A DNA stretch of 64,000 bases, taken from assembly GCF_001747085.1 (NCBI RefSeq), contig NZ_MDJD01000054.1, positions 682,001 to 746,000 on the forward strand, given 5' to 3'. Below the pieces are notes generated by a model that saw only the letters and a list, made by a program, of their open reading frames with translations, was not told the origin of the DNA and did not search any database. Of the stretch, positions 4,393-6,199 are shown piece after piece. The position numbers and the translations under genes are program-made. Origin of the DNA: Flavivirga aquatica (lineage in GTDB: Bacteria > Bacteroidota > Bacteroidia > Flavobacteriales > Flavobacteriaceae). Each line of letters starts with the position of its first letter. Positions within the stretch are counted from its first letter, which is position 1.

Positions 4393-4695
4393 CTATAAAT
4401 GTGCTCTTAATTTTTCTTTTCGCTTTTTTAACTGTCTTTCTAGCGATGCAATAGCCATATCTGCGCCTTCTTCAAAGCTCTTACATTGTTTTTTTACAAT
4501 TAAACTATCTCCAGGAACACTTACTCTTGCTTCAAATATTTTATTTTCTTTATCGCTTGTGTTTTCTAATTTTAAAAAAACATCTGATTTAATCACTTTA
4601 TCATAAAACAAATCTAATTTATCCATACGTTTCTGAATGAAACTTATCAACTTCTGGTCTGCATTAAAATTAACTGATTGTGTGTTTACTTTCAT
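4393..4695 (-). CDS. hpf: Ribosome hibernation promoting factor, short form
   Basis: This 100-residue protein of the HPF/YfiA (S30AE) family has the beta-alpha-beta-beta-beta-alpha pattern, with a lysine-rich C-terminal helix (LERQLKKRKEKLR). It binds the small-subunit decoding centre in stationary phase and inactivates ribosomes. It is the short form, lacking the C-terminal dimerisation domain of long HPF. The neighbours xerC and rpsU upstream and tRNA-tuf downstream give the order usual in Bacteroidota. The opposite-strand frame over the same bases is only a shadow. Confidence 0.92.
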   Translation of the reverse strand: MKVNTQSVNFNADQKLISFIQKRMDKLDLFYDKVIKSDVFLKLENTSDKENKIFEARVSVPGDSLIVKKQCKSFEEGADMAIASLERQLKKRKEKLRAHL

Positions 4696-4896
4696 ACTAC
4701 TATTTTTTTTGGGTTAGACAATACCTATACCTCTAATTATAATTAATTTAAATCAATAATAATTATTCATTGTTCCTTCTTTATATTTAAAATAGAAAAG
4801 AAGACACTTATATCTTTATCTGTACTTATACTTTTATTTAAAAAGCCATATGCTTTCTTTTACAATAAATTTAAACAATTGAGATATTCATAAATA

Positions 4897-5787
4897 CTAT
4901 TTTTTACTTCTTGGATGTGCATTTATATGTACTTTTTTTAATTCTGCTATACTATTATGTGTATAAACTTGTGTTGCTGCCAAGCTTGAATGTCCAAGAA
5001 GTTCTTTAACAGCATTTAAATCGGCACCTTCGTTTAACAAATGTGTTGCAAAAGAATGCCTTAATATATGCGGACTCTTTTTTACTTTTGAAGATGCTAT
5101 ACTAAAATAATCATTTATTACTCTGTAAACAAGTGTTTCGTATATTTTAATCCCTTTTTTAGTTAAAAATAAACTATCTCTATCAGAAATACTTTGCAAC
5201 TCACTCCTTAAACCTAAATACTTAACGGTAGTTTTCACTACTGATTCTAACAACGGAACCATGCGCTCTTTATTTCTTTTACCTAATACTTTTAACACTT
5301 TATTATGTATATCGATATTTACCAGATTTAATTCAACAAGTTCTATCCTCCTAATACCTGTTGAATAGAACAACTCAATAATGAGCTTATTTCGAATACT
5401 TTCAAAATCATCATCAAAATTTAAATCATCAAGAACTGTTTTAATTTCTGCTTCTGAAAAAGGAATTTGTATTTTTTTACTTGTTTTTAGAGCCTTATGT
5501 TTTAATAAAGGATTTAAATTAATATCTCCTACTTTTAAAAGAAACTTATAATAAGTATTTAAACCCGATATTTTCCTATTAATACTCCTATTTGACAAAC
5601 CTTGCTCGACGAGAAAAACTATCCATGTTCTTATTTGAGCATAATTAACAGTATTAATAGAACTTTCTTGATATTCTTTATCTATAAACTCTAAAAAATC
5701 TCTTAAACCACTTTCATATGCATTTACAGTTAATTCTGAGTAGTTTTTTTCTAACAATAAATAATCTGTAAATGATTTGAAAGGCAT
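4897..5787 (-). CDS. xerC: Tyrosine recombinase XerC
   Basis: This 296-residue site-specific recombinase probably acts with a XerD partner at dif to resolve chromosome dimers. The core-binding SAM-like domain covers about residues 1-90. The catalytic set is visible: R146 (in YSTGIRR), H240 and R243 (HILRH), H266 (ELLGHSS) and the nucleophile Y275 (TQVYTH). The length is normal for Xer proteins and the gene is intact. Its place between rpsU and hpf fits a housekeeping Xer rather than a phage integrase. The choice between the symbols xerC and xerD rests on this context. Confidence 0.9.
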   Translation of the reverse strand: MPFKSFTDYLLLEKNYSELTVNAYESGLRDFLEFIDKEYQESSINTVNYAQIRTWIVFLVEQGLSNRSINRKISGLNTYYKFLLKVGDINLNPLLKHKALKTSKKIQIPFSEAEIKTVLDDLNFDDDFESIRNKLIIELFYSTGIRRIELVELNLVNIDIHNKVLKVLGKRNKERMVPLLESVVKTTVKYLGLRSELQSISDRDSLFLTKKGIKIYETLVYRVINDYFSIASSKVKKSPHILRHSFATHLLNEGADLNAVKELLGHSSLAATQVYTHNSIAELKKVHINAHPRSKK

Positions 5788-5871
5788 ATGTAAATTAATA
5801 AGTTTTTAAAAAATCTTGCTAAACAATATATAATTGAATATACAACGATTTTATTTAATGTTAAAACAAAA

Positions 5872-5895
5872 AAATTCCCGCATTAGCGGGAATTT
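5872..5895 (-). terminator. Strong intrinsic terminator after rpsU
   Basis: A perfect 10-bp stem (AAATTCCCGC and GCGGGAATTT) with a 4-base loop is followed on the minus strand by a run of T. It starts 25 bases after the rpsU stop, so rpsU is probably made mainly as its own short transcript and not with xerC. Confidence 0.9.
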
Positions 5896-5920
5896 AAATA
5901 TATTTCTGATTTAGAAGCTA

Positions 5921-6115
5921 TTAAACTTCTTCTGCATCTCTTAATCTTTGAATATATTGAGCTTTTTGTATTTGAACTCTACGTAAAACTGAAGGTTTAT
6001 TAAACTGCTTGCGTGTTTGTAATTGACGCTTGGCTCCAGTTTTATCAAACTTTCTTTTAAAACGCTTTAGCGCTCTATCTATATTTTCTCCTTCTTTAAT
6101 CGGTATTATTAACAT
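5921..6115 (-). CDS. rpsU: 30S ribosomal protein S21
   Basis: This 64-residue basic protein is bS21, which sits on the small-subunit platform next to the 3' end of 16S rRNA. The N-terminal segment (PIKEGENIDRALKRFKRKFD) is typical. It is a single-gene unit with its own promoter (6152-6178) and a strong terminator. Most unusual is the full Shine-Dalgarno upstream (6126-6135). In Flavobacteriia, published structural work shows that bS21 with bS6 and bS18 hides the anti-Shine-Dalgarno, and that rpsU keeps a strong Shine-Dalgarno, which suggests self-regulation. Confidence 0.97.
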   Translation of the reverse strand: MLIIPIKEGENIDRALKRFKRKFDKTGAKRQLQTRKQFNKPSVLRRVQIQKAQYIQRLRDAEEV

Positions 6116-6125
6116 AGTGTCTTAA

Positions 6126-6135
6126 CCTCCTCTCT
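6126..6135 (-). promoter_or_regulatory. Exceptionally strong Shine-Dalgarno of rpsU
   Basis: On the minus strand the bases AGAGAGGAGGT run up to 9 bases before the rpsU ATG. They can pair with nearly the whole conserved 16S 3' tail (ACCUCCUUUCU) over 11 positions, with one G-U pair. No comparable site precedes tuf, nusG, rplK or rplA in this window. Confidence 0.85.
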
Positions 6136-6151
6136 TTTAGATTTTCGGCTG

Positions 6152-6178
6152 CAAATATATAAATAATTCTGAATTCAA
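6152..6178 (-). promoter_or_regulatory. Promoter of rpsU
   Basis: Read on the minus strand, TTG (6176-6178) and TATATTTG (6152-6159) are 16 bases apart. They match the Bacteroidota -33/-7 pattern TTG...TAnnTTTG. Initiation just after the box gives a leader of about 30 bases that holds the Shine-Dalgarno. Confidence 0.65.
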
Positions 6179-6199
6179 AAATTAGTAATTAAAATTATT

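Follow-up and report, generated by a model that had tools for sequence, protein, structure and literature searches.

What does the extended Shine–Dalgarno (SD) sequence in front of rpsU do in Flavivirga aquatica? The original prediction held that this site answers to ribosomes lacking bS21, the ribosomal protein that rpsU encodes. We followed the question through the 64,000-nucleotide stretch of DNA that carries the gene (the window), the remainder of the F. aquatica genome and relatives within the Flavobacteriaceae.

The rpsU leader and its pairing with 16S rRNA

The rpsU gene (5921–6115, minus strand) encodes a 64-residue protein that retains Tyr54 and is, by its profile and structure matches, clearly the housekeeping bS21 (hereafter bS21A): it scores 50.4 bits against TIGR00030 (curated cut-off 28.95), and its best PDB match is F. 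johnsoniae bS21 (7jil chain z, 7jil_z; E = 2.8e-25 over 62 residues). The stretch 4393–6115 holds, consecutively and on one strand, hpf (ribosome hibernation factor), the gene of a xerC-like tyrosine recombinase, and rpsU.

The sequence 5′ of the gene is TATATTTGCAGCCGAAAATCTAAAAGAGAGGAGGTTAAGACACT-ATG, within which the elements run, 5′ to 3′, TATATTTG CAGCCGAAAATCTAAA AGAGAGGAGGT TAAGACACT ATG. The first of these, TATATTTG (6152–6159, minus strand), is a −7 promoter element of the Bacteroidota type TAnnTTTG, which was present upstream of rpsU in 126 of 133 SD-bearing relatives (shuffled rate 4%), its G standing at a median of 34 nt before the ATG. Placing the transcription start from this element gives a predicted mRNA leader of about 30 nt (6116–6147, minus strand). 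A weak candidate −33 element, AATTTTTG (6176–6183, minus strand), was seen 16 nt from the −7 element, a spacing slightly short of the known consensus. On the 3′ side of rpsU is an intrinsic terminator (5872–5895, minus strand) with a 10-bp stem, a 4-nt loop and a T tract, predicted to work on both strands; shuffling yielded 0.1 such sites in the region. A compact unit of some 30 leader bases with its own promoter and terminator, as first described, is therefore what the locus appears to hold.

The extended SD, AGAGAGGAGGT, lies 9 nt before the ATG (6125–6135, minus strand). All four rrn copies of the genome end their 16S gene in ...GGAACACCTCCTTTCTAG, and the anti-SD complementary to the rpsU site, ACACCTCCTTTCT, is kept in each. 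The gapless duplex of AGAGAGGAGGU with the 16S tail ACCUCCUUUCU comprises 11 pairs (ten Watson–Crick and one G–U) at −17.3 kcal/mol, computed with ViennaRNA duplexfold rather than free_scan and with the F. aquatica tail applied to all relatives; a Bacteroidota rpsU SD was counted as extended at −13 kcal/mol or better and 9–13 consecutive pairs, a range within which this site falls. Pairing with about 11 bases of the tail had been anticipated, and all 11 nt of the organism's own tail are indeed paired; calling the SD ‘full-length’ is justified when the tail is taken as A1534–U1544, the 11 nt visible bound in the F. johnsoniae structure (PMC9976891, Fig. 2 legend). In a few relatives the pairing runs over more bases.

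Such a site is exceptional in this genome. The pattern RAGGAGGT-N3-12-ATG, searched genome-wide with ATG starts only, occurred at 65 sites in 4.64 Mb, against 92 for the reversed pattern. Checking each for gene context placed nearly all of them inside other long reading frames or before ORFs of few residues, while the handful outside ORFs led into ORFs of 5 to 35 codons; rpsU alone was a plausible gene start outside another ORF, so that equally strong sites before many other genes, which would have spoken against a dedicated role, were not found. Background statistics were drawn from these genome-wide pattern searches and from a simple gene calling of 644 kb (434 genes), in which 15 genes reached −6 kcal/mol or better in the SD region against 32 in the mock window, indicating that SDs are avoided. 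The starts of tuf, nusG, rplK and rplA carry nothing similar, as originally noted (−2.9 to +1.8 kcal/mol), and secE, hpf and xerC likewise have no SD (same range). No ORF fell below −7.5 kcal/mol among the 46 in the window of at least 150 aa; typA and kdsA were covered through this set rather than by name.

Two other strong matches were not accepted as gene-start SDs. One, of −16.7 kcal/mol at the start of a pxpC-like gene (L383:14841), pairs only with a bulge and falls within the last part of the upstream member of a pxpB–pxpC-like pair. The other is an intergenic AAAGGAGGT (L336:1440–1560; G000:C34:504055; −17.0 kcal/mol) before a 29-codon ORF (L336:1472) that nothing supports as a gene; it may mark a tiny gene or be a chance occurrence.

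Probable autoregulation by ribosomes that lack bS21

The autoregulation model for bS21 reportedly goes back to Jha et al. 2021. In F. johnsoniae, McNutt et al. 2023 (PMC9976891) demonstrated that bS21-less ribosomes bring about autoregulation of rpsU, whose translation rose when bS21 was depleted, truncated or altered by Y54A. They also found rpsU to be marked by exceptionally strong SDs in about 80% of Flavobacteriales, with extended SDs across the Bacteroidota (PMC9976891). The pocket that holds the 16S tail has likewise been established by experiment, and it is Tyr54 of bS21 that turns the tail into it (PMC9976891).

The F. aquatica locus shares with that of F. johnsoniae an SD at or beyond −13 kcal/mol, a canonical anti-SD, Tyr54, a monocistronic rpsU and an otherwise complete lack of strong SDs at gene starts (PMC9976891). 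It differs in its leader (about 30 nt versus 25 nt; PMC9976891), in the one G–U among its pairs and in having another bS21 gene, which is SD-less; regulation is known there by experiment and deduced here from sequence.

The strong pairing and the shortness of the leader would also be in keeping with a constitutive, unregulated ribosome-binding site serving high expression of a much-needed ribosomal protein. We consider this very unlikely, as the highly expressed neighbours tuf, rplK and rplA do without an SD and, in F. johnsoniae, the rpsU leader is used poorly by wild-type ribosomes and well by bS21-less ones (PMC9976891).

The F. aquatica leader is thus very probably the published Bacteroidota bS21 switch, its operation in this species being read from the sequence. 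In a complete ribosome, bS21, bS18 and bS6 would keep the 16S tail in its pocket, closing the anti-SD to ordinary mRNAs. In a ribosome lacking bS21, the freed tail would form 11 pairs with the rpsU leader, setting off bS21 synthesis; newly made bS21 would then close the tail again, and synthesis would fall. A site that answers to bS21-less ribosomes matches the published mechanism (PMC9976891), and the sequence-level predictions that were tested all hold. The mechanism first proposed for this locus is therefore supported as correct, but it had already been published and the idea is not new. Since the second, SD-less gene means that bS21A is not the sole source of bS21, the rpsU loop may by itself give only partial feedback.

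Conservation and loss of the SD in the family

We compared the leader with its homologues across the Flavobacteriaceae, the check that the original prediction had called for, in 117 bS21A loci (one genome per genus, mainly the higher-scoring matches of a Pfam search). The strong SD was kept, at −13 kcal/mol or better, in 109 of the 117 (median −18.1 kcal/mol). A GGAGG or GGGGG core occurs in 109 leaders, 98 of which place it 9–10 nt before the ATG. Tyr54 was found in the F. aquatica product and in 114 of the 117 family proteins. The F. aquatica rpsU locus is an ordinary, well-conserved member of the published system.

The eight bS21A leaders below threshold all came from genomes of 1.2–2.2 Mb, an association of SD loss with small genome size at p ~3e-5 (Mann–Whitney; genomes of known size, relatedness uncorrected). 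These loci are L295, L300, L305, L310, L324, L325, L327 and L332, with relatives in L479–L522. Decay of the anti-SD as the cause found no support, CCTCC still being present in both readable 16S sequences. That several Flavobacteriaceae with small genomes have lost the SD is what might be expected of a functionless relic from an SD-using ancestor, an explanation to which we give almost no credence: the 9–11 paired bases are nearly fully conserved in 109 of 117 genera while SDs are otherwise avoided, and in Chryseobacterium relatives the SD covaries with an altered anti-SD (PMC9976891).

In the first, less selected set, Tyr54 was absent from three of the eight SD-less bS21A proteins and from none of the 109 with an SD. 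Adding loci chosen for their similarity to an SD-less His54 protein gave 152 distinct bS21A: 132 with SD and Tyr54, one with SD and another residue, 13 without SD but with Tyr54, and six with neither. Tyr54 was thus lost in 6/19 SD-less against 1/133 SD-bearing proteins (Fisher p ~1e-5, the sequences not being independent), and six of the seven proteins without it belong to the SD-less small-genome group. That the SD and Tyr54 have been lost together in nature supports a functional tie of the SD to anti-SD occlusion, although the association is partial, with 13 of the 19 SD-less proteins keeping Tyr54.

A second bS21 gene and its possible occupancy of the ribosome

A PF01165 profile search found two bS21 genes in the F. 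aquatica genome. The second, bS21B, lies outside the window (G000:C7:53517-53708; L065:5518-5712), encodes 64 residues about 55% identical to the rpsU product (TIGR00030 46.7 bits, cut-off 28.95), lacks an SD and keeps Tyr54. Judged by identity, some 60 of 200 genera in the family have a member of this group, the lower edge of the count being soft. None of 80 named bS21B loci had a strong SD (strongest −6.1 kcal/mol), nor did any in another set that overlaps the first in part (−9.8 kcal/mol at the strongest); Tyr54 was retained in 60/60. Five genomes given as 99% complete, G090, G195, G137, G157 (one contig) and G193, hold only bS21B and no SD-bearing bS21A (loci L426–L430).

In 46 of the 80 loci (L086:3107-3970 and 45 others of L085–L164), the gene immediately preceding bS21B in the same orientation encodes an RpoD-type sigma factor (287 aa). 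Such genomes have, besides this pair, a distinct RpoD that is highly conserved: mean identity was 98.7% among 18 non-adjacent sequences versus 80% within the bS21B-linked group. The F. aquatica genome gave one such RpoD match only, so bS21B has been kept there without a sigma partner.

An inverted repeat, TTTAGGA-N3-TCCTAAA, was also observed about 25–45 nt before the bS21B start (L086:3961-3977, L121, L125). The palindrome TTTAGGATAATCCTAAA upstream of bS21B resembled an operator, but in sigma-linked loci its left half coincides with the final codons of the sigma gene (YLG-stop). The repeat occurs in loci without the sigma gene too, and hairpins upstream of bS21B outnumbered those in shuffles (7.8 versus 5.7) but were not uniform.

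The presence of bS21B in F. aquatica and many relatives had previously gone unnoticed. McNutt et al. name lineages with several bS21 genes, none of them in the Flavobacteriaceae (PMC9976891). Multiple bS21 paralogues, possibly giving ribosomes of different composition, are known for example in Francisella tularensis (PMC9578407); as there, the Flavobacteriaceae can have more than one bS21 gene per genome, but here one paralogue carries the SD switch and the other is SD-less and often sigma-linked. The marine flavobacteria Dokdonia have two RpoD-type sigma factors per genome (PMC3587595), and the sigma factor encoded next to bS21B seems to belong with their second RpoD. The Dokdonia paper does not mention bS21 (PMC3587595); the connection to bS21B comes from the present analysis, and our literature search found no paper tying two RpoD homologues to bS21.

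Phages supply further bS21 genes. About 20 distinct, SD-less forms were found on IMG/VR contigs (L165–L223). Among full-length genes with an ATG none exceeded −4.8 kcal/mol, one locus at a contig edge having been left out for its meaningless value, and all 17 aligned forms have Tyr54. Being SD-less and equipped with Tyr54, phage bS21 should escape rpsU-type control. A third bS21 type, in which His replaces Tyr54 (L068:3364-3555; L076:3272 onward), was also seen; its SD is moderate (−10 to −12 kcal/mol) and its promoter TATAAT-like.

The most economical account of these findings would be that the rpsU SD senses any bS21 on the ribosome. If so, and if bS21B enters ribosomes, this paralogue, having no SD of its own, could fill them and silence bS21A. 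This extends the autoregulatory model to a site that reads total bS21 occupancy, where SD-less bS21B or phage bS21 would fill the ribosomes, shut rpsU and so swap the bS21 type in one direction. We regard the extension as a serious but minority possibility. It is favoured by the lack of a strong SD in every bS21B examined and in full-length phage genes, by the consistent retention of Tyr54 in both, and by the sigma gene often adjacent to bS21B, as conditional expression predicts; against it, the sigma partner is absent from F. aquatica itself, and bS21B may have another role.

More tentatively still, many Flavobacteriaceae may possess a two-gene ribosome switch, in which bS21A is made mainly when ribosomes carry no bS21, and bS21B, SD-less and often sigma-linked, enters them under other conditions, closes the anti-SD and turns bS21A off. 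Were this true, shifts in transcription and in ribosome type would coincide, and phages with an SD-less bS21 would be exploiting the same logic.

The rpsU leader itself adds one more genome to the published case of specialised bacterial ribosomes. What the analysis contributes beyond this is a family in which an autoregulated bS21 coexists with, or gives way to, a paralogue that escapes its control, a proposition that is testable; the question of the bS21 paralogues is the part worth further work. If bS21B does enter ribosomes, a sigma-factor programme would be tied to ribosome composition, and the function of bS21 heterogeneity could be tested directly in cultured strains (for example Algibacter, Hyunsoonleella) or by giving bS21B to F. 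johnsoniae.
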